Shown here: positions 25,915-64,000 of the stretch, one piece after another
How the letters are laid out: the number at the start of each line of letters is the position of its first letter
Position numbering within the stretch: the stretch's first letter is position 1
Made by a program: the position numbers and the translations under genes
Notes under the pieces: generated by a model
What the model was told of the DNA's origin: nothing
What the model saw: the letters and a program-made list of their open reading frames with translations, nothing else
The model's database searches: none
Assembly (NCBI GenBank): GCA_949752745.1
Contig: OX457028.1
Coordinates: 21,622,352 to 21,686,351 of the forward strand
Origin: Protula sp. h YS-2021
Taxonomy: Eukaryota > Annelida > Polychaeta > Sabellida > Serpulidae
Direction of reading: 5' to 3'
DNA: 64,000 nt

Positions 25915-26800
25915 CCACTATCATTTGTAATTTCTTTGTCGCTAGTTCTCCCACCGTACATTGGAGAAATTAATGTTACTGAAAAGTTAGGAGCACAACA
26001 AATAAAAATTTAGCTGTGTTATGATGCTTCTAATTTGACCAAGTCATGCTCTGTAAATTGAGATCTTTTGGGGTTTCAATAAAAATTTCGGAACAATCAA
26101 TTATTCCCCTTAAGTCAGGAAGCTTCGAAAAACGTGATGGTTTTGACTCATTAATCTCCTCTTTACTCGGCCAGTAAACAAGCTTTCCTAAAGTTTGTGA
26201 CATTGCTGATAACCAGCTGTGAAAAATTTTGGAACTAAGTACCTTAGAAATACCAAAACGTTTGCCCAGATCTTCATATAATAACCCTAGTCTAAGTTTC
26301 ATTAACGTTAGTAAAAACTCATCTTCACTCTTCAACTTTCGAGCCGGCCCGAATTTATTTGAAGTCCGATTGAAATTCCGTTTAACATTTATGACCCTCT
26401 TTATACCATGCCATCTTCTGCTAACAAATCTGGACACAAAATTGTGCAGGCGAAAAAACAAACTCTTTGTACTAATACCCGTAAAAAAGTTTACATCTCT
26501 GTCACATAATAACAATGTTTCATAAACACTTTTAGACCTGCTCTTTTTTTGTTTTGGCTGCAGTTGGTATCGCAAAAAAGTGTTTTCATGTTTTAGTTTT
26601 GCATTGTCTGTCTTCAGCTTTCTTACTAAAGCGAGTAAAATGAATACAATAAACTTATATGCCAACGATTGGCCACTGCGTGTATCCGCAACATTTTCAA
26701 CGTCCAGCAAGCTGTCCTCACTTGCAGCTATGGTCTACGTTTCAAAGGCAATTTCCTCTTTTTGTTTCTCTCTTCCTTTCAGAGTAGTCTTCATTAGCGT
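25915..26800 (-). pseudogene. THAP-type DDE transposase (Harbinger/ISL2EU-like), truncated
   Basis: The main frame (26030-26710) has a coiled-coil-like start (VRKLKTDNAKLKHENTFL), a helix-turn-helix (FLLTLMKLRLGLLYEDLGKR...GISKVLSSKIFHSWL) and then GIIDCSEIFIETP, where DC carries the first catalytic aspartate of DDE_Tnp_4 transposases. After stops the fold continues with SVTLISPMYGGRTSDKEIT to about 25918, where a DIRS-like copy interrupts it. The second aspartate (DRGF block) and the glutamate are lost. Upstream of 26710 the frame reads on to 26800 except for one TAG. The THAP exon at 27539-27736 belongs upstream. Confidence 0.75.
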
Positions 26801-29534: not shown

Positions 29535-30046
29535 AACTCTTTATCCGTGTATAGCCCATCCATTGACTGTACCAGTTTTCATCCTGGCAAATACGTCATT
29601 GATGTCTGCCAATGTGACGTTTTCCATTAGCGGAAGCTTACAGAAACCTTTCTCCGCGAAGAAATCAACCATGACCTTCAACTGCTCCAGACTGCCCGTT
29701 CTGCTGCCGATGATAGAAATGCATCTACCCGTCAAGCTCGGTGTGGCGAGGGGCACCACAACGCCGGCATTCTTCACAGACCAGAGACACGCCTCTATGG
29801 TTTTGGGGAGTCCCACTCGATCAACACAGGCGACGACCTTGCCCTGGGCAGTGAACTTCGCCACCATGTCATCCATTGTAGCTTCGCGGGAAAGTAGGAT
29901 CGTGACATTTTCGGCAGCCTGTCCACGGATACGCGATGACCACATCGCCTACAGCATGAGGACATTCTGGTCCCACATCGCCTCCCACCTCAATGACCTT
30001 GCCACAAATCCCATGCCCAAGGACTATGCCTTTGTAGCCTTCCGTT
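29535..30046 (-). pseudogene. Zinc-dependent alcohol dehydrogenase fragment
   Basis: Reading leftward from a good acceptor (TTCTTCTGTAG|GAACGG at 30046), the first part reads VLGHGICGKVIEVGGDVGP and VGDVVIAYPWTGCRKC. These are the GHE-like catalytic-domain block and the start of the structural-zinc cysteine block of medium-chain dehydrogenases. After a frameshift and loss of roughly 110 residues of the nucleotide-binding half, the second part reads VGLPKTIEACLWSVKNAG, PLATPSLTGRCISIIGSRTG and a C-terminus VFARMKTGTVNGWAI. The usual GHE reads GHG. The lack of introns, the internal deletion and the frameshift favour a pseudogene. Functional alcohol dehydrogenases of this family are cytosolic. 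Confidence 0.65.
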
Positions 30047-45172: not shown

Positions 45173-46104
45173 TCAATCATATGGTATAACTGATGTATTC
45201 ATATTGCGAAATGCACAAGCTACAGCTACCATTTTATCTAAACACGGCACACCGTCAGTCTCATATATTAAATAATCTATAGGTATTTTACTTCTTAAAA
45301 TGATAAATTTATTTCTAACTAAACCGATAACTCTTTCTACATGTACTCGAGGATTTTTCGAGTTGTTTCCACATCACACGCAGTTAACTGTTTATTTGCC
45401 CCTCATAAAGGCAGGTATGTTATCCTCCGCACACATCACACCGACGGCATCACTTATATCAAAACCACGGTCTGCTAGAACAACATCACCAGGCAATAAA
45501 TTATTTAAAAAACCAGAATTTTTACATATATGCTTATCACTAGTCCTCCCTTCCCATCCGTTTGATAACCCCTTGCGGACATATGCCAATTAAATATTTA
45601 ACGGTTTTCATGTGTTTATAATTACTCCAGGTTTGGGCCCTTGACATGAAATTAGACGGCCTATCGATAAATATTTCAAAACAATCTATAATTGAAACTA
45701 TTTTTGCGCCAAAATTTCCCTGAATGACACTGGCATTGTTTACTTAATTGCTCCCTATCCGGCCACATTATGAACGATTTTAAGCGAACATATAAAACAT
45801 GCAATATACAGTTAAAATTTGCTGACACATTTGAAGACGAAATTCCGAGCCGAAAAACTGAATCCTGAATTTGAGTGTTCAATCGCAAACGCATTAAAGT
45901 TATAATAATGTTTTGAAATTTCGACATTTTTGACATGCTGTGGTGAGGTAGGAAATCACTTACTGTATTGAAAACAACAATCAGACTTAAAAATGATCGA
46001 AGCCCAGTATAATAATTTACAAAATCATCACGCCCTTCGAAAAACTTTGTGTTCATTTCAAGTTCAACGACTGTCTTTTTCAAATACATATTTTCAGTCA
46101 ACAA
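45173..46104 (-). pseudogene. ISL2EU/Harbinger-type DDE transposase
   Basis: The first frame (46104-45676) has a helix-turn-helix (FQNIIITLMRLRLNTQIQDS...FRLGISSSNVSANF) and WPDREQL, and breaks just at the first catalytic aspartate block (IIDCFE readable in a shifted frame). The middle (45589-45392) has [13 protein letters not shown] and [15 protein letters not shown], with the second aspartate in ADRGF. The last frame has RVHVERVIGLVRNKF, with the catalytic glutamate in HVER, and runs to a natural stop at 45173. All three catalytic blocks are therefore visible, but frameshifts separate them. The THAP exon is at 47058-47256, beyond an intron of about 950 bp. Confidence 0.75.
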
Positions 46105-46587
46105 TTTATTACAATTTTTAACAATGTTATCATTTTTCCTCCCCGTTTTCTTTCTCTAGTTCATTTTCGTCTCTGCCAAGATCTAACAATGCCCTGACCG
46201 CGTCATTTTTTTCTGTTTGACTCCCGCTCTTGGGCATGCACGTTCATATCTGAAAAATATAAAACAATTTAGATTAATAGATTTATTGAAAAAGGGAAAC
46301 GTGGCCCCGGGACTTAGATCAGAAAATACCTTGATAAAATAAGTGACCTCGGGCTATTGGACAACAAACTCCCCGACCCCACCCCCTCTCCTCCACCGTT
46401 TTACGTTTATTTCCAAGCATTTTCAATCAAAAAAAATTTAAAAATGACTTCCTTGCCATTTTATTAGCAGATCCTCATGGAGTTCTGCCTTCCTCTTAAT
46501 ATTGCTGAGCGGCAATGGCGCAACCAAACTGGGTGACTAACTTCGTAAAGCCTGGCTGGTTTACCTAAATTTGAAAAAAAAATCATG

Positions 46588-48789: not shown

Positions 48790-50225
48790 GAGGCTCGATA
48801 ATGTCACAGTTTTGGCAGAATCGCTGCAGAAAAACATTAATGACTGGCTTAGTATCGGTGCAAATGCGGAAATTATTGACTGATTAAAGTATGGTGTCCA
48901 ACTCCCTTTTAAAGTCTGTGCCAAGTTCATAGGAGTTTGAAAAACACTCGTTCAATGTTGAACAATCCTCTTTATAGATCGTGAAATTAGCTCTCTATTA
49001 AAAGCAAACGTTATTTCTCAAGTAGGGGAGAAACCATTCTGTGTCAATTCCTTGGGCTGCGTGCCCAAAAAGAACAAGTTAAGGCTAATTGTAGATCTGC
49101 GTCGATTAAACGAATATATAAAGGTTCCTCATTTTAAAAACGAGAGAATTGATGTTGTATGTGATCAAACTGAGCAGGGTGACGAATTAATTTCGGTTGA
49201 TTTGACCAATGGGTGCCATCACATATTGATTCATCCCGAGTTCCGCACGTATTTAGGATTTTCATGGAAGAAAAAATACTATGTATTTAATTGTTTACCG
49301 TTCGGGTTGAATATCAGTCCGCTTTATTTCGTGCAGTCGTACAATATCTACGATCACAGTCTCTTCGGTATACATCGTTTGTCGATGACGGAATATTGGC
49401 GGCGCAGCCTGATAAAATTCAGGATCAAAAGCAACTCTTGTTAGACACTTACAGTCGTTTAGGTTTCTATATAAACTACGAAAAATCGGATCTCACTCCA
49501 AAACAGGAACTGTTATTCATTGGCTATGTGTTAAATCCAACAGGGTTTCAATTCCCAACTCTCGCATCTACAAGCTTAGGCGAGATATTAAACGCATACT
49601 AAATAAAGGTTGCGCCTCGGCACGTTTTTAGCTCGTGTATGCGGAGAGTGTACTCCATTCACTAAGGCTATCGTCCCTACTAAATTGCAACTTCGAAATT
49701 TATACCGCTTTCTTAGCACCAGGTAATCTCGTTCAGATACATTGTCGCTAGATGCCGCTAGTGTCGATGATTTGGAATGGTGGATCGCCGCTCCACAGAA
49801 TTGGAACGGTAAACCCATAGTCAAAAAGGATGTTGATATTCAAATATCTATTCTACGATGATTCCAGCAGCGGTTGGAGTGGTTCTGTAACGGTTTAGAT
49901 CCTTGGGCAACAGAAGTCAAATTTAAATCTATCAATTATAGTGAGTTGCTCTCCGTTTTTCTCACGATTAAATCATTCGTGCATAAAGTTGGCCAAAAAA
50001 TGCATTCGGGAGTTGTCAGACAATATAACGACCGTCGCTCAGTTAAACCGCTTGGGTGGGAATATAGGCGAGCTAAACAGCTTAACGAGAGCCATATTCC
50101 GTCTAGCATACTCTCACAATATCGATATTCAGGTGAAACATTTGGCCGGCAAAATAAATACTCATGCCGACAGGCTTTCGCGAGTTGCAGAGAACAGTGC
50201 ATACAATTGGAAATTAAACCCACGA
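48790..50225 (+). pseudogene. Reverse transcriptase-RNase H of second DIRS-like retroelement
   Basis: The blocks are: VPKKNKLRLIVDLRRLNEYI, ISVDLTNGCHHILIHPEF (first aspartate), FNCLPFGLNISP and the catalytic FVDDGILAA at about 49377-49400 after a frameshift. Then come LGFYINYEKSDLTPKQELLF (thumb) and RNase H-like ELLSVFLTIKSF, LSDNITTVAQLNRLGG and HLAGKINTHADRLSR to about 50200. Several frameshifts separate them. RNase H with HADRLSR directly after reverse transcriptase, without protease or integrase, fits DIRS-type elements. No tyrosine recombinase was seen before the sequence breaks off near 50340. Confidence 0.6.
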
Positions 50226-55231: not shown

Positions 55232-55303
55232 GCCTCTATAGCTCAGTGGTAGAGCACTGGTCTCGTAAACCAGGGGTCGTGAGTTCAAACCTCACTGGAG
55301 GCA
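55232..55303 (+). tRNA. tRNA-Thr (anticodon CGU)
   Basis: The 72-bp sequence folds into a complete cloverleaf: acceptor GCCTCTA/TGGAGGC with one G-T pair, D-arm GCTC/GAGC, anticodon stem CTGGT/ACCAG around loop CTCGTAA (anticodon CGT, reading ACG codons), and T-arm GTGAG-TTCAAAC-CTCAC. The A box is TAGCTCAGTGGT and the B box GAGTTCAAACC; discriminator base A; no intron; CCA not encoded, as in eukaryotes. It is followed by TTTTT, an RNA polymerase III stop. Every stem pairs, so it is probably functional. Confidence 0.95.
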
Positions 55304-57745: not shown

Positions 57746-57762
57746 AACGTTAGTAGGGTGAA

Positions 57763-57864
57763 AACGTTGGTTCTACCGCACTTGCGGTAGAACCAACGTT
57801 GGTTCTACCGCACTTGCGGTAGAACCAACGTTGGTTCTACCGCAAGTGCGGTAGAACCAACGTT
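57763..57864. repeat. Three overlapping 38-bp perfect palindromes with CT/AG centre
   Basis: AACGTTGGTTCTACCGCA and its exact inverse flank a 2-bp centre. Palindromes start at 57763, 57795 and 57827, each sharing AACGTT with the next. The centres read CT, CT and AG, so the third is reversed. The right arm has one (63363-63400, centre AG on the plus strand). More GGTTCTGCTGC/GCAGCAGAACC variants follow inward. Confidence 0.9.
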
Positions 57865-57924
57865 TGGTTCTGCTGCAGAACCAATGTTTTGCATTGCAGC
57901 AGAACCAACGTTGGTTCTACCACA

Positions 57925-58186
57925 CTTTGTGACGTCATACTGTCTGGACCGGAAGTGACGTCATACTGTCTGGACCGGAAGTGTTGTCTGGACCGGAAGT
58001 GCTGTCTGGAGCGGAAGTGCTGTCTGGACCGGAAGTGCTGTCTGGACCGGAAGTGCTGTCTGGACCGGAAGTGACGTCATACTGTCTGGACCGGAAGTGA
58101 CGTCATAACGTCTGGACCGGAAGTGCTGTCTGGACCGGAAGTGACGTCATCATGTCTGGACCGGAAGTGACGTCATGATAAGCGTT
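57925..58186 (+). promoter_or_regulatory. Array of ETS-CRE-like sites (left arm)
   Basis: Eleven copies of CTGGACCGGAAGTG (one GAGCGG variant); five are fused to a CRE to give ACCGGAAGTGACGTCA, and one more CRE lies at 57929. ACCGGAAGT is the ETS/GABP consensus and TGACGTCA the CREB/ATF site; the fused form matches a known composite. Whether these bind factors here is not shown. Confidence 0.5.
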
Positions 58187-58204
58187 AGGATAGGCGCGGC
58201 CCTC

Positions 58205-58315
58205 CATGAGGTCATAATGAGATCATAATGAGGTCATAATGAGGTCATAATGAGGTCATAATGAGGTCATAATGAGGTCATAATGAGGTCATAATGAGGT
58301 CATAATGACGTCATG
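58205..58315 (+). repeat. 11-bp array: AGGTCA direct repeats spaced by 5
   Basis: Nine units of ATAATGAGGTC type (one AGATCA), ending in TGACGTCA. Spacing AGGTCA-TAATG-AGGTCA equals the DR5 arrangement recognised by RAR/RXR-type nuclear receptors. The mirror copy is at 62914-63021. Confidence 0.85.
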
Positions 58316-58422
58316 CTGTGTGGCGGCTTCCTAGGGTTTGAGTGGATGATCGTTGAATTGAATGAAGTCAAGCTTTCATTTCCGAAGTCAATCGGCAACA
58401 GACCCTAAAAAGTGATGACCCC

Positions 58423-58497
58423 CCCCCCCATGAACATGCTATGTACCGACCCCCCCCCCCGGGACATACTATGTACCGACCCCCCCCCCCCCCCCCT
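58423..58497. repeat. Poly-C tracts with GTACCGA spacers
   Basis: Three C runs are separated by ATGTACCGA-type spacers; mirrored as G runs at 62729-62810. G-quadruplex/i-motif-prone. Confidence 0.85.
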
Positions 58498-58619
58498 AGG
58501 CGGCAGTCGGGACAAACCCTATGGTAAAAAGTGTGAAAATTTCACTGTTTGATTCAGTTTTATGTAAAGTTTTGTTATAAAATTGTCATGAGCTAGTTGC
58601 GCAGCTGGCTGTCTACATT

Positions 58620-59275
58620 TTTACCACCATTTTAACTTTGTAAAAATTGTGATAACTTTCGTTATAGTTGACCGATTTGTATGAAAATTTCATTGTTTGA
58701 TTCAGTTTTATATCTAGTTTTGTTATAAAGTGATCATGAGCTAGTTGCGTAGCTGGCTGTATGCATAATTTGACATGCCGCCATTTTAACTTTGTAAAAA
58801 AATTGTGATAACTTTCGTTATAGTTGACCGATTTGCATAAAAATTTCACTGTTTGATTCAGTTTTATGTAAAGTTTTGTAATAAAGTGGTCAGGGGCTAT
58901 TTGTGCATGTGGCTGTATGCATATTTGTCGCATGCCCATTTTAACTTTGTAAAAATTGTGATCACTTTCGTTATAGTTGACCGATTTGTATGAAAATTTC
59001 ATTGTTTGATTCAGTTTTATATCTAGTTTTGTTATAAAGTGATCATGAGCTAGTTGCGTAGCTGGCTGTATGCATAATTTGACATGCCGCCATTTTAACT
59101 TTGTAAAAAAATTGTGATAACTTTCGTTATAGTTGACCGATTTGCATAAAAATTTCACTGTTTGATTCAGTTTTATGTAAAGTTTTGTAATAAAGTGGTC
59201 AGGGGCTATTTGTGCATGTGGCTGTATGCATATTTGTCGCATGCCCATTTTAACTTTGTAAAAATTGACATAACT
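58620..59275. repeat. 153/156-bp alternating satellite (left arm)
   Basis: 'GATAACTTTCGTTATAGTTG' recurs with alternating 156- and 153-bp spacing, so the higher-order unit is 309 bp, present twice with nearly no change. Both spacings are multiples of three and one minus-strand frame stays open for 232 codons. The mirror array is at 61905-62605. Confidence 0.9.
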
Positions 59276-59635
59276 TTCTCTATAGTTGATCGATTTGCAT
59301 GAAAATTGCACTGTTTGGTTCAGTTTTATATCTAGTTTTTGTTATAATGTAGTCATGGGCTATTTGCGCAGCTGGCTGTAGGCATAATTTGACATTTGCC
59401 ATTTTAACTTTTTAAAAAGTGGGAAAAGTGTGATAACTTTCGTTATGGTTGACCGATTTGCATGAAAATTTCACCGTTGGATTCAGTTTGATGTCTTAGT
59501 TTTACAGTAGTTTATGCATAGGTAGGTTGTTGGAATGGCGCGCGCCCACCATTTAAACATGTGTTTGAATAAGTTTTACGTCAAACTATTGTTCAACAAG
59601 TTGTTTAGCAATTGTACAACAATTGTTCAACAAGC

Positions 59636-59908
59636 TGTTGTTGAACATGTTCAACATGTTGTTGAACATGTTCAACATGTTCAACATATTCAACATGTTC
59701 AACAACATGTTCAACAAGTTGAACATGTTCAACATGTTCAACATGTTCAACAACATGTTCAACATGTTCAACATGTTCAACATGTTCAACAACATGTTCA
59801 ACAAGTTGAACATGTTCAACATGTTCAACATGTTGTTGCACAAGTTGAACATGTTCAACATGTTCAACATGTTCAACATGTTCAACTTGTTCAACAACAT
59901 GCTGTTTA
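59636..59908. repeat. 9-bp GAACATGTT/AACATGTTC array (left arm)
   Basis: Units of CAACATGTT with inversions such as GTTGAACATGTTCAAC. The word GAACATGTTC fits the p53 half-site pattern RRRCWWGYYY. Similar arrays lie at 60936-61030 and 61348-61600. Confidence 0.9.
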
Positions 59909-59977
59909 ACAAATTGTTCAACAAGTTGTAGTTCAAGCAAAGAAAAAACAAGACATATGTTGAATAGGTTTATTAAT

Positions 59978-60065
59978 ACATTTAAATACACTTAAATGCA
60001 CTTAAATACATTTAACTACACTTAAATACACTTAAATACACTTAAATACACTTAAATACATACAG
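59978..60065 (-). repeat. 10-bp ACACTTAAAT tandem downstream of core gene
   Basis: About eight units of CACTTAAATA between the left arm and the gene's polyadenylation signal. Confidence 0.85.
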
Positions 60066-60109
60066 CTTAAATCTATAACAATATTATAACATTTATTGAT
60101 TTACAAAGT

Positions 60110-60117
60110 CTTTATTA
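60110..60117 (-). terminator. Polyadenylation signal of core gene
   Basis: AATAAA on the minus strand (TTTATT on the plus strand), about 20-30 bp after the stop codon. Another AATAAA follows near 60093. Confidence 0.6.
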
Positions 60118-60137
60118 TAATGTTTAGTCAAATAAGT

Positions 60138-60875
60138 CTATTTTTCTTCATCTGCTTCACTCTGTTCACTGGCATTCATATCACTTTCTTCGTCACTGCT
60201 TTCATCTTCCTCCTCCTCATCTAGAAGCTCTTCAAAGAATGCATCGTTTCTTCTTATAGCCGCCTTTAGTGCCTTTGAATACTCGTAATGTTTTTCATCA
60301 ACAAAGTAATTGAAGTCTTCTAAAATGGTTTCATAATGTTCGTTTTGTTGTAGACGTTGGGCATATTTGAATAGTCTCATAAACAGTTGTTTAAGTCGAC
60401 GCTTATAAATGGGTCGAAAGTCATCACTTGCTATTTCACGCGCATCTTCAAGCCCTTGTTCTTCATATTCTGAAACCTTTTCTTGAAATTTGGTATCATA
60501 TTCATCGTAGACTTCTTGAACCATATCATACCAAACAGAGTCTGCTTCTGACTCACTTTCAGAGTCTGTTTCTGACTCACTTTCAGGGCTGTCGTCATCA
60601 TCACCCTCAACACAATGTTCCATATGTTTAAACAAAGCTTCTTGACTGTTGTACAACGCACCACATTCTGTACAAGCATGTGCATTCTTTTCAGTCATGT
60701 TGACGCTTTGACTTTCCATAGAAGACTCATCTAAAGTTTCAGTGATAGGTGGTTTTACAGGGTTTTCCATATCTATCTCCAATTCTTCTTCTTCTGAAGT
60801 GTGAGCATTCTTTAAGTGCCTTTTAAGACTTTGTGGCCAATTGTAAGATTTCAAACAAATGTTGCATTTATACAT
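60138..60875 (-). CDS. Acidic two-zinc-finger protein of the palindromic element
   Basis: The 245-codon frame has no interruption. Residues 4-25 form a classic C2H2 finger (CNIC, x12, H-x4-H). Residues 68-88 form a C2HC-type finger (CTEC, x12, H-x3-C). Residues 91-112 are Ser/Asp/Glu-rich. Residues 113-216 are a predicted-helical domain of mixed charge (VWYDMVQEVYDEYDTKF, IYKRRLKQLFMRLFKYAQRL, YSKALKAAIRRNDAFFEELL). 217-245 is a strongly acidic tail. A finger starts three residues after the ATG, and a TATA box lies about 55 bp upstream, so the start is well supported. The fingers suggest DNA binding and the acidic parts suggest chromatin or activator contact; the function is unknown. A decayed relative lies at 63540-64000. 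It is the only long uninterrupted gene in the window. Confidence 0.8.
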   Translation of the reverse strand: MYKCNICLKSYNWPQSLKRHLKNAHTSEEEELEIDMENPVKPPITETLDESSMESQSVNMTEKNAHACTECGALYNSQEALFKHMEHCVEGDDDDSPESESETDSESESEADSVWYDMVQEVYDEYDTKFQEKVSEYEEQGLEDAREIASDDFRPIYKRRLKQLFMRLFKYAQRLQQNEHYETILEDFNYFVDEKHYEYSKALKAAIRRNDAFFEELLDEEEEDESSDEESDMNASEQSEADEEK

Positions 60876-60926
60876 CCTTTCGGTTCAACATGCACTTTTC
60901 AAATGAAGAAAAAGCCTTTAAACATG

Positions 60927-60935
60927 GCCTTATAT
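60927..60935 (-). promoter_or_regulatory. TATA box (TATATAAGG) of core gene
   Basis: TATATAAGG on the minus strand lies about 52 bp before the ATG at 60875. Transcription would start near 60900, leaving a leader of about 25-30 bases. Confidence 0.6.
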
Positions 60936-61038
60936 ACAACTTGTTGAACAACATGTTGAACATGTTCAACTTGTTGAACAACATGTTGAAGAACATGTTC
61001 AACAAGTTCAACATGTTGTTGAACATGTTGTCTACGCC

Positions 61039-61052
61039 TAGGGTTAGGGTTA
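61039..61052 (+). repeat. Short telomere-like TTAGGG run
   Basis: TAGGGTTAGGGTTA, two repeats of the metazoan telomere unit, sits between the core 9-bp array and the CRE-like cluster. It may be chance. Confidence 0.6.
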
Positions 61053-61068
61053 TGCCGCTTAGAGGAGT

Positions 61069-61155
61069 CTAACGTCATGACGTCTTTATGACGTTATCAT
61101 GACATCATTATGACGTCATCACGTCATCATTATAACGTCATAATAACGTCATTCG
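61069..61155. promoter_or_regulatory. Cluster of CRE-like TGACGTCA / AACGTCAT words
   Basis: At least eight ACGTCA or TGACGT words occur in 87 bp upstream of the core gene's TATA box, a possible proximal enhancer. Confidence 0.45.
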
Positions 61156-61904
61156 AACAGGCGCGCGCTTTACCAAAAAAAAAAAAACTGACTCAGCAGA
61201 ATTTGTTTCTGTTTGATAGGTATGAAATACATGTCTCACTCTTCCTTTTATGTTACTTCGATGTAATCAAAATATGGTGTGTAACTTGCTCAAAAATGCC
61301 AAACTTGTTAAAATTGCTAAAATTGCTGACTCAGCAAATCGACCAACTTGTTCAACAACATGTTGAACATGTTGAACATGTTGTTGAACATGTTGAACAT
61401 GTTCAACATGTTCAACATGTTCAACAACATGTTGAACATGTTCAACTTGTTTAACATGTTGTAGAACATGTTGAACATGTTGAACATGTTCAACTTGTTG
61501 AACATGTTGTTGAACATGTTGTTGAACATGTTGAATATGTTGAACATGTTGAACATGTTCAACAACATGTTGAACATGTTCAACAACAGCTTGTTGAACA
61601 ATTGTTGTACAATTGCTAAACAACTTGTTGAACAATAGTTTGACGTAAAACTTATTCAAACACATGTTTAAATGGTGGGCGCGCGCCATTCCAACAACCT
61701 ACCTATGCATAAACTACTGTAAAACTAAGACATCAAACTGAATCCAACGGTGAAATTTTCATGCAAATCGGTCAACCATAACGAAAGTTATCACACTTTT
61801 CCCACTTTTTAAAAAGTTAAAATGGCAAATGTCAAATTATGCCTACAGCCAGCTGCGCAAATAGCCCATGACTACATTATAACAAAAACTAGATATAAAA
61901 CTGA

Positions 61905-62605
61905 ACCAAACAGTGCAATTTTCATGCAAATCGACCAACTATAGCGAAAGTTATCTCATTTTTTACAAAGTTAAAATGGGCATGCGACAAATATGCATAC
62001 AGCCACATGCACAAATAGCCCCTGACCACTTTATTACAAAACTTTACATAAAACTGAATCAAACAGTGAAATTTTTATGCAAATCGGTCAACTATAACGA
62101 AAGTTATCACAATTTTTTTACAAAGTTAAAATGGCGGCATGTCAAATTATGCATACAGCCAGCTACGCAACTAGCTCATGATCACTTTATAACAAAACTA
62201 GATATAAAACTGAATCAAACAATGAAATTTTCATACAAATCGGTCAACTATAACGAAAGTGATCACAATTTTTACAAAGTTAAAATGGGCATGCGACAAA
62301 TATGCATACAGCCACATGCACAAATAGCCCCTGACCACTTTATTACAAAACTTTACATAAAACTGAATCAAACAGTGAAATTTTTATGCAAATCGGTCAA
62401 CTATAACGAAAGTTATCACAATTTTTTTACAAAGTTAAAATGGCGGCATGTCAAATTATGCATACAGCCAGCTACGCAACTAGCTCATGATCACTTTATA
62501 ACAAAACTAGATATAAAACTGAATCAAACAATGAAATTTTCATACAAATCGGTCAACTATAACGAAAGTTATCACAATTTTTACAAAGTTAAAATGGTGG
62601 TAAAA
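61905..62605. repeat. 153/156-bp alternating satellite (right arm)
   Basis: Mirror of 58620-59275 with the same 309-bp higher-order unit. Confidence 0.9.
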
Positions 62606-63051
62606 ATGTAGACAGCCAGCTGCGCAACTAGCTCATAACAATTTTATAACAAAACTTTACATAAAACTGAATCAAACAGTGAAATTTTCACACTTTTTAC
62701 CATAGGGTTTGTCCCGACTGCCGCCTAGGGGGGGGGGGGGGGGGGGTCGGTACATAGTATGTCCCGGGGGGGGGGGTCGGTACATAGCATGTTCATGGGG
62801 GGGGGGGGTCATCACTTTTTAGGGTCTGTTGCCGATTGACTTCGGAAATGAAAGCTTGACTTCATTCAATTCAACGATCATCCACTCAAACCCTAGGAAG
62901 CCGCCACACAGCATGACGTCATTATGACCTCATTATGACCTCATTATGACCTCATTATGACCTCATTATGACCTCATTATGACCTCATTATGACCTCATT
63001 ATGATCTCATTATGACCTCATGGAGGGCCGCGCCTATCCTAACGCTTATCA

Positions 63052-63298
63052 TGACGTCACTTCCGGTCCAGACATGATGACGTCACTTCCGGTCCAGACA
63101 GCACTTCCGGTCCAGACGTTATGACGTCACTTCCGGTCCAGACAGTATGACGTCACTTCCGGTCCAGACAGCACTTCCGGTCCAGACAGCACTTCCGGTC
63201 CAGACAGCACTTCCGCTCCAGACAGCACTTCCGGTCCAGACAACACTTCCGGTCCAGACAGTATGACGTCACTTCCGGTCCAGACAGTATGACGTCAC
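63052..63298 (-). promoter_or_regulatory. Array of ETS-CRE-like sites (right arm)
   Basis: Mirror of the left array: CACTTCCGGTCCAG units, with TGACGTCA beside several. It is about 2.1 kb upstream of the core gene's start. Confidence 0.5.
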
Positions 63299-63455
63299 AA
63301 AGTGTGGTAGAACCAACGTTGGTTCTGCTGCAATGCAAAACATTGGTTCTGCAGCAGAACCAAACGTTGGTTCTACCGCAAGTGCGGTAGAACCAACGTT
63401 TTCACCCTACTAACGTTGAATATCTGCATAACGTTGAAACTGTGGTAACACATCG

Positions 63456-64000
63456 AAAAGCAAGACATATTGAATGGTTTTATTGATACATTTAAATATA
63501 CAGCGCTTAAATCAATAACAATATTACAACATTTGTTGATTTCGGTCTTTATTATAAAGTTTAGTCAAATAAGTCTATTGTTCTTCATCTGTTTCACTCT
63601 TTTCCACCTCACTCTCTTCATCCACAGCACTTTCTTAATTGCTACTTTCATCGTTCTCCACCTCATGTAGAAGCTCTTCCAAGAATGCATCGTTTCTTCT
63701 TATAGCCACCTTTAGTGACTTTGAATACTCGTAATGTTTTTATCAACAAAGTAATTAAAGTCATCTAAAATGGTTTGATAATGTTCGCTTTGTTCTAAAC
63801 TATATTTGAATAGTCTCATAAACCTTTGTTTTAGTCGACGCTTTTAAATGGGTCGAAAATCACCACTTGCTCTTTCACGCACATCTTCAAGCCCTTGTTC
63901 TTCATATTCTGAAACCTTTTCTTGAAATTTATCATCATGGTCATCGTTCTGACTCACTTTCAGAACTGCTGTCATCATCAAGCTCGCCACAATGTTCCAT
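63456..64000 (-). pseudogene. Second, decayed copy of the zinc-finger gene (runs off window)
   Basis: It aligns with 59946-60630, including the 3' flank (AAGACATATTGAATGG, TACAGCGCTTAAATC). The C-terminal tail is in frame up to the stop at 63575-63577, but an in-frame TAA occurs at 63635-63637, a one-base deletion after 63740 shifts the frame, and the Ser/Asp/Glu region has a large deletion. It has the same orientation as the intact gene and lies directly outside the right arm, where the arm-core boundary would fall in a repeating array of elements. Confidence 0.75.

Follow-up and report, generated by a model that had tools for sequence, protein, structure and literature searches.

Mavericks (Polintons) carry genes for a protein-primed polymerase, an integrase, an ATPase and a cysteine protease and have been argued to be integrated viruses (PMC4028283). 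In vertebrates, they are associated with 6-bp duplications and mostly possess 5'-(AGT)2//(ACT)2-3' ends (PMC8097293); here and below, statements on published systems refer to excerpts of the papers cited. The present analysis concerns a 64,000-nucleotide stretch of contig OX457028.1 (assembly GCA_949752745.1 of Protula sp. h YS-2021, positions 21,622,352 to 21,686,351), in the following termed the window, which harbours an element composed of two long inverted arms and a core gene for a zinc-finger (ZF) protein. Most probably, this element is a non-autonomous, gene-bearing palindromic satellite of the Maverick family, and its Maverick ends together with a 6-bp duplication explain the missing recombinase. 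An earlier note on this DNA had proposed a new mobile-element type. A mobile foldback-like element with its own gene and with relatives residing between similar arms is indeed found, but not a stand-alone type, as its ends and 6-bp duplication are those of a Maverick.

Results

The element proper extends from position 57752 to 63411 (5660 bp) and is flanked on both sides by AACGTT (57746-57751 and 63412-63417), considered as target-site duplication in line with the 6-bp duplications found for 23 of 24 pairs of such ends in this genome (see below). The earlier note had recognised an inverted-arm element but set its limits to 57746 and 63417; AACGTT is its own reverse complement and was therefore taken as arm sequence. 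The terminal motif is AGTAGG, the ends reading AGTAGGGTGAAAACG... The left (57752-59929, plus strand) and right arm (61345-63411, minus strand) have no sharp inner borders because they diverge more in the inner array. Otherwise, the description as two nearly perfect inverted arms of ca. 2.1 kb around a core was borne out by exact inverted pairs of up to 677, 583 and 428 bases, the longest of which compares with 56 bases elsewhere in the window and 15 bases in 50 dinucleotide shuffles. An end-anchored alignment of the arms outside the inner 9-bp array contains five substitutions in ca. 1.9 kb, four of them within 25 bases, and a few indels, the largest of which leaves the left arm longer by about two 32-bp units. 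That the arms are an assembly artefact is unlikely: the two flanks are not the same, the arms are not identical, and there are further palindromes in other places, each with a 6-bp duplication of its own. Insertion of the element into an older copy was rejected, since the left flank resembles the arm repeats hardly better than shuffled sequence does; the score of 36 (shuffles: mean 28.6, standard deviation 4.0) was reached by 19 of 300 shuffles, and by 13 of 300 for the reverse strand.

The outermost parts of the arms are common to Mavericks. The left terminal segment (57752-57918, plus strand), beginning with AGTAGGGTGAAAACGTTGG... and including 32-bp palindromic units, matches the right end of a Maverick (L003) at 98.8% over 167 bases and the related element L031 at 100%. 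The right one (63309-63411, minus strand) likewise matches the Maverick; its border was read from the sequence, with the junction as in the left arm.

For a survey of the 863-Mb genome, one exact 26-base arm pattern was used, which would miss copies without the exact pattern. It gave 100 matches (control: 0) that group by position into 24 pairs and four unpaired places. AGTAGT or AGTAGG ends are present in all 24 pairs and exact 6-bp duplications, every one of different sequence, in 23. Nineteen pairs delimit elements of 17.7-21.8 kb (about 18.7 kb) and five delimit elements of 5.7-9.2 kb. The full-size copy L029/L030 encodes an integrase core plus chromodomain, a Pox_A32/Adeno_IVa2-type ATPase and a NADAR protein, as well as a stretch resembling the adenovirus protease (Peptidase_C5, E=0.0005, just under the Pfam cut-off). 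A 1247-residue frame contains an endonuclease VII-like stretch and the sequences KLMNNSVFGKTMEN and SDTDSL, which we take to be polymerase motifs. Capsid genes were not recognised by Pfam among the 20 frames scanned of this presumed helper. The integrase, ATPase, protease-like and polymerase-like markers were detected in all nine full-size copies examined (of 19), the ZF gene in none of them. The marker proteins of these nine Mavericks (L029, L030, L049-L065) are mostly 96-100% identical to those of L029/L030, exceptions being ORF410 (88-99%) and, in one copy, ORF245 (91%); the helper family thus looks young.

As expected for a non-autonomous Maverick derivative, the window element has its ends in common with larger, gene-bearing copies in the same genome. 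A polymerase, integrase, ATPase or protease of their own was not encountered in the satellite loci as examined, and the window element matches the Maverick outside its genes only, namely in the terminal, promoter-like and C-rich parts of L029/L030. These data also bear on an interpretation as a true foldback element of the Mutator or P type that depends on a transposase from another locus. Tetris and Galileo likewise have long arms built of tandem repeats (PMC4079207, PMC3688188), but the 6-bp duplication and the AGT..ACT ends contrast with the 8-10 bp duplications of Tetris, and the elements of larger size that bear these ends are Mavericks, which largely refutes this interpretation and leaves it a very slight probability.

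The full-length ZF gene was identified in the window, L031, L032, L033, L034, L048 and L067, and a piece of it at the edge of L066, hence at eight loci in all; a stop codon interrupts one (in L048) of nine gene sequences. At five loci (window, L031-L034) the whole palindromic plan is visible. L033 (9164 bp) and L034 (9118 bp) are palindromic over 9.13 kb, where each is 99.4% alike to its reverse complement, and hold two ZF genes, head to head, around a central spacer of ca. 25 bases. A single ZF gene is present in L031 (7097 bp) and L032 (7528 bp), whose arms measure 2.8 and 3.0 kb. The earlier note had asked whether homologues of the gene always sit between similar arms, and the answer is mixed: arms are seen on both sides for four of the seven other loci (L031-L034), and on one side in the pieces examined for L048, L066 and L067; the loci were found via the arm pattern, so that the search is biased towards arms. 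L031 and L032 are 99.2% alike over 6.8 kb, L033 and L034 99.2% over 9.1 kb, and their sites carry different duplications, from which it follows that the satellite family moved recently.

A second open frame of 264-284 residues, ORF264, is located in each arm of L031-L034 (L032:1187-1981 on the minus strand, L032:6763-7557, L031:6409-7203, L033:8521-9459, and mirror copies). It has A-P-E repeats, a basic stretch (PPRKR), a C-x2-C...H-x3-C motif and an end that resembles a zinc finger; Pfam gave no match and the best hit of a PDB search had E=0.37. ORF264 is single or double in L048, L066 and L068, the last without a ZF gene in the piece examined, and missing from L067 and from both window arms. 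Correspondingly, the terminal segment of the window arms is joined, at GGTTCT/ACCACAC, to sequence lying 1.5 kb further in within L031. This junction exists in both window arms, the right one having been read directly from the sequence, and the identical 1.5-kb change suggests that the arms were copied from each other. The longer satellites moreover carry, 1.7-1.9 kb from their ends, an internal motif similar to the terminus (AGTAGGGTGAAAACGCCGG, or a sequence close to it; L031:2133, L032:2478, L033:2378, L034:2302, L048:6584; mirrored in the other arm of L031-L034), which points to an earlier exchange or nesting of ends. In a more complex satellite form, L066:4890-8461 and L068:5383-8944, the outer arm is present as two direct copies in a row. 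Maverick marker genes were not found in the retrieved pieces of L031-L034, L048 and L066-L068, nor was a helicase among the frames of at least 75 residues in L031-L033, which comprise the ZF gene, ORF264, array frames and short overlapping frames.

The ZF gene of the window (60138-60875, minus strand) encodes 245 residues with two zinc fingers (C4-H25 and C68-C88), acidic linkers and a conserved C-terminal domain, so that the intact core gene reported earlier, with its acidic regions, is substantiated. Its open frame of 248 codons exceeds those of all 1000 core shuffles (largest 227). In agreement with the previous view that the element's own gene is not a recognisable transposase, Pfam shows only C2H2 fingers above cut-off, and sequence searches with the C-terminal domain matched no known fold. 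Derivation of the protein from a piece of the Maverick polymerase-like protein was rejected because of no significant likeness; among the L029/L030 frames the best matches to the ZF protein and ORF264 had E=0.059 and E=0.088, respectively.

Protein searches retrieved four and then 60 relatives (E up to 1) in other assemblies, which share 24-60% of residues with part of the window protein. A C2H2 motif is present in 28, the C-terminal domain in 25 and both in 13, the remainder being partial or broken, and P0061 (E=0.1) probably being a finger protein of other descent. The peptide at the start of P0033 has a 9-base period (VQHVQFVQHAQLVYI) and resembles a AACATGTT-type array (see below) followed, as judged from the peptide, by a TATA box, and this suggests an old association of array and ZF gene. 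The nearly alike P0013 and P0049, both on contigs of length 5192, would fit a two-gene palindrome. No relatives were detected in phages, viral contigs and prokaryote genomes; among the PHROGs, one family without assigned function is similar to the finger only. An arm reading frame, used as probe for arrays elsewhere, produced six low-complexity matches that are uninformative.

Selection on the two satellite genes was assessed by sequence comparison. Nine ZF gene sequences vary at 18 sites, 7 synonymous and 11 nonsynonymous (p=0.027), although sequences from the same palindrome are not independent. Between the subtypes, 15 of 31 changes in ORF264 are synonymous and 16 nonsynonymous, fewer of the latter than expected (p=0.005); the corresponding numbers for the ZF gene are 5 and 8 of 13 (p=0.06), and both genes pooled give p=0.0008. 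Within the subtypes, the one or two differences of L031, L032 and L048 from the window copy are all nonsynonymous. These results are relevant for the idea that the satellites are internally deleted Mavericks, i.e. decay products which kept their ends and picked up a host gene without a role. The Maverick-like ends and promoter-like segment (see below) and the at least 19 paired full-size Mavericks of the family in the genome would be compatible with such an origin; the recurrence of the ZF gene at eight loci, one with a piece only, the whole palindromic plan at five, the fewer nonsynonymous changes than expected in two genes and the related proteins in other assemblies, 13 of 60 with finger plus C-terminal domain, speak against it and render it improbable.

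Directly beyond the element, a decayed older copy of the ZF gene with its 3' flank occupies 63486-64000 (minus strand) and runs past the window. The earlier statement that everything else in the window is decayed needs this addition, namely that the decayed material includes the same gene region. In L035:230-845 (window 63578 onward) this copy is an older generation of the ZF gene without arms; neither AACATGTT nor a long inverted repeat is present in the 5.3 kb examined. One might regard the ZF gene as a member of a host gene family around which arms formed by local inversion, and the adjoining arm-less copy is in favour of this. However, the other copies have different 6-bp duplications and are in part 99.2% alike, so that we attribute only marginal probability to this origin.

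At the outer end of each arm stand palindromic 32-bp units; further in follow an array with CCGGAAGTGACGTCA, an 11-bp array, C-rich blocks, 156-bp repeats and, innermost, a AACATGTT array. In the left arm, GTCTGGACCGGAAGTGACGTCATA-type units extend over 57929-58176, the 11-bp array ATGAGGTCATA over 58206-58314 and the 156-bp tandem repeats over 58534-59503. The AACATGTT sites are placed in the left arm (59644-59882, 21 sites), before the ZF gene (60950-61029, 6 sites) and in the right arm (61357-61580, 20 sites). They amount to 47 in the element, at both inner arm ends and before the gene, versus one in the remaining window and a maximum of three in 300 shuffles; L031 has 49, L033 56 and the Maverick pieces tested two. 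The proximity of a zinc-finger gene to so many sites of a single short palindromic sequence suggests a regulator binding AACATGTT, comparable to the THAP domain of Galileo, which binds many sites in the arms of that element (PMC3688188), and we tentatively propose from this arrangement that the ZF protein may recognise the arrays at both inner arm ends and before its own gene.

Upstream of the ZF gene lie a TATATAAG box (60929-60936, minus strand), a core array of ATGACGTCATT-like units (61077-61153) and a segment (61191-61307, minus strand) that is 80% alike, in an alignment of 118 columns, to the region preceding the Maverick polymerase-like gene. This promoter-like segment includes the exact 16-mer ATAAAAGGAAGAGTGA at 61236-61251. 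In the one Maverick tested (L029, L030), the 16-mer occurs solely in front of the polymerase-like gene, a variant of it lying directly upstream; in the satellites it precedes the ZF genes of the window, L031, L032, L033 (both), L034 (both) and L048 (one of two). A TGCTGACTCAGCA palindrome (61324-61336) is also found beside the Maverick polymerase-like promoter. At 57929-58176, 61077-61153 and 61324-61336, respectively, CCGGAAGTGACGTCA, TGACGTCA and TGCTGACTCAGCA sequences are much denser than in the remaining window; they resemble what we presume to be animal transcription-factor sites.

The rest of the window contains two transposase helix-turn-helix pieces (HTH_Tnp_4) at 26033-26734 and 45679-46155 (both minus strand), a reverse-transcriptase piece (48962-49441, plus strand), a weak zinc-dehydrogenase piece (29544-29948, minus strand) and a tRNA gene (55232-55303, plus strand).

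Discussion

Several observations weigh against the assignment as Maverick satellite. The end sequence in common with the Maverick is short (ca. 170 bases in the window copy and ca. 370 in L031, 85-92% alike), the other common parts are an 80%-alike segment of ca. 115 bases and C-rich repeats, and most of the arm sequence is unmatched in the Mavericks examined. The idea that the arms are a Maverick left end in duplicate is likewise not borne out past the terminal 170-370 bases. In the window copy, the promoter-like segment is directed at the element end, whereas in the Maverick it is directed away from the end, which implies that a simple snap-back of the Maverick left end does not yield this structure; the 16-mer ATAAAAGGAAGAGTGA is absent before the second ZF gene of L048 and has no match in the 163 upstream bases of L067. 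Since AACGTT is self-complementary, the window copy taken alone formally allows a shorter or no duplication, and the pair L049/L050 has no matching one. Neither Pfam nor NCBIfam nor PHROGs assigned the 1247-residue frame to the polymerases. The gene content is known for nine of the 19 full-size copies, and L048, L066, L067 and L068 were seen in part. For the intact ZF gene versus the adjacent decayed copy, omega is 0.66 with a range (0.35-1.56) that includes 1 and is thus not significant. Finally, the mobilisation in trans by Maverick enzymes is inferred from sequence.

For the satellite assignment, which we nevertheless prefer, the following scenario can be outlined. The Maverick integrase, supplied in trans, would insert the satellite via the common ends, and the protein-primed polymerase of the Maverick would copy the linear satellite DNA. 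The repeated end motif of Mavericks is thought to permit jumping back (PMC8097293). A displaced strand with complementary arms would fold back and be copied, whereby the palindrome is made or restored. The window copy probably originates from a full palindrome by loss of one of the two central ZF genes and of ORF264 from each arm. The ZF protein would most likely serve as a DNA-binding regulator of the satellite.

The satellite offers a route to long foldback arms, i.e. the copying of a linear, protein-primed element. Moreover, the Maverick life cycle in animals is hard to see. As the 99.2%-alike satellite copies imply recent mobilisation, expression, copy number and insertions of the satellite might be used to follow helper activity indirectly. 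Among the literature matches listed, as judged by title and abstract start, no gene-bearing palindromic Maverick satellites are described, a search outside of which lie subscription papers for the most part and repeat databases wholly.

Adenoviruses form symmetric recombinants, in which a palindromic genome carries the same viral end twice and which arise from protein-primed replication; these are known as by-products and not as heritable families with their own genes. Compared to foldback elements, the window element shares with Tetris the long inverted arms with internal tandem repeats and the lack of a transposase, whereas the excerpted report on Tetris describes 8-10 bp duplications and no conserved open frame (PMC4079207); owing to its 6-bp duplication, the window element does not fit a Mutator-type foldback. 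Galileo is similar in its foldback-like long arms and in the many short sites bound by an element-encoded THAP domain, but its protein is a P-type transposase, in contrast to the window ZF protein with only C2H2 fingers in Pfam (PMC3688188). The 6-bp duplication, the AGTAG..CTACT ends and the terminal segment agree with the 18.7-kb Maverick family of this genome; the satellites differ from it in their size of 5.7-9.2 kb, their palindromic structure, their own ZF gene and the lack of any Maverick marker in the parts examined.

The transpovirons of mimiviruses are comparable in their length of ca. 7 kb, terminal inverted repeats, a zinc-finger core gene, helper-like regulatory elements and dependence on a larger virus, and are distinguished as giant-virus episomes with a helicase and repeats of 380-520 bases (PMC7031253). 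In the satellites, no helicase was found, the arms measure 2-4.6 kb and the element resides as an insertion in an animal-type genome; the likeness concerns the plan only. It is conceivable, although we would not place it above even chances, that animal Mavericks have palindromic transpoviron-like hyperparasites with two private genes, which borrow the ends and the polymerase promoter of the helper, are copied by the helper polymerase and perhaps packed in its capsids, and whose ZF protein, by binding the AACATGTT arrays (CAACATGTT)n, keeps or biases their own copying.

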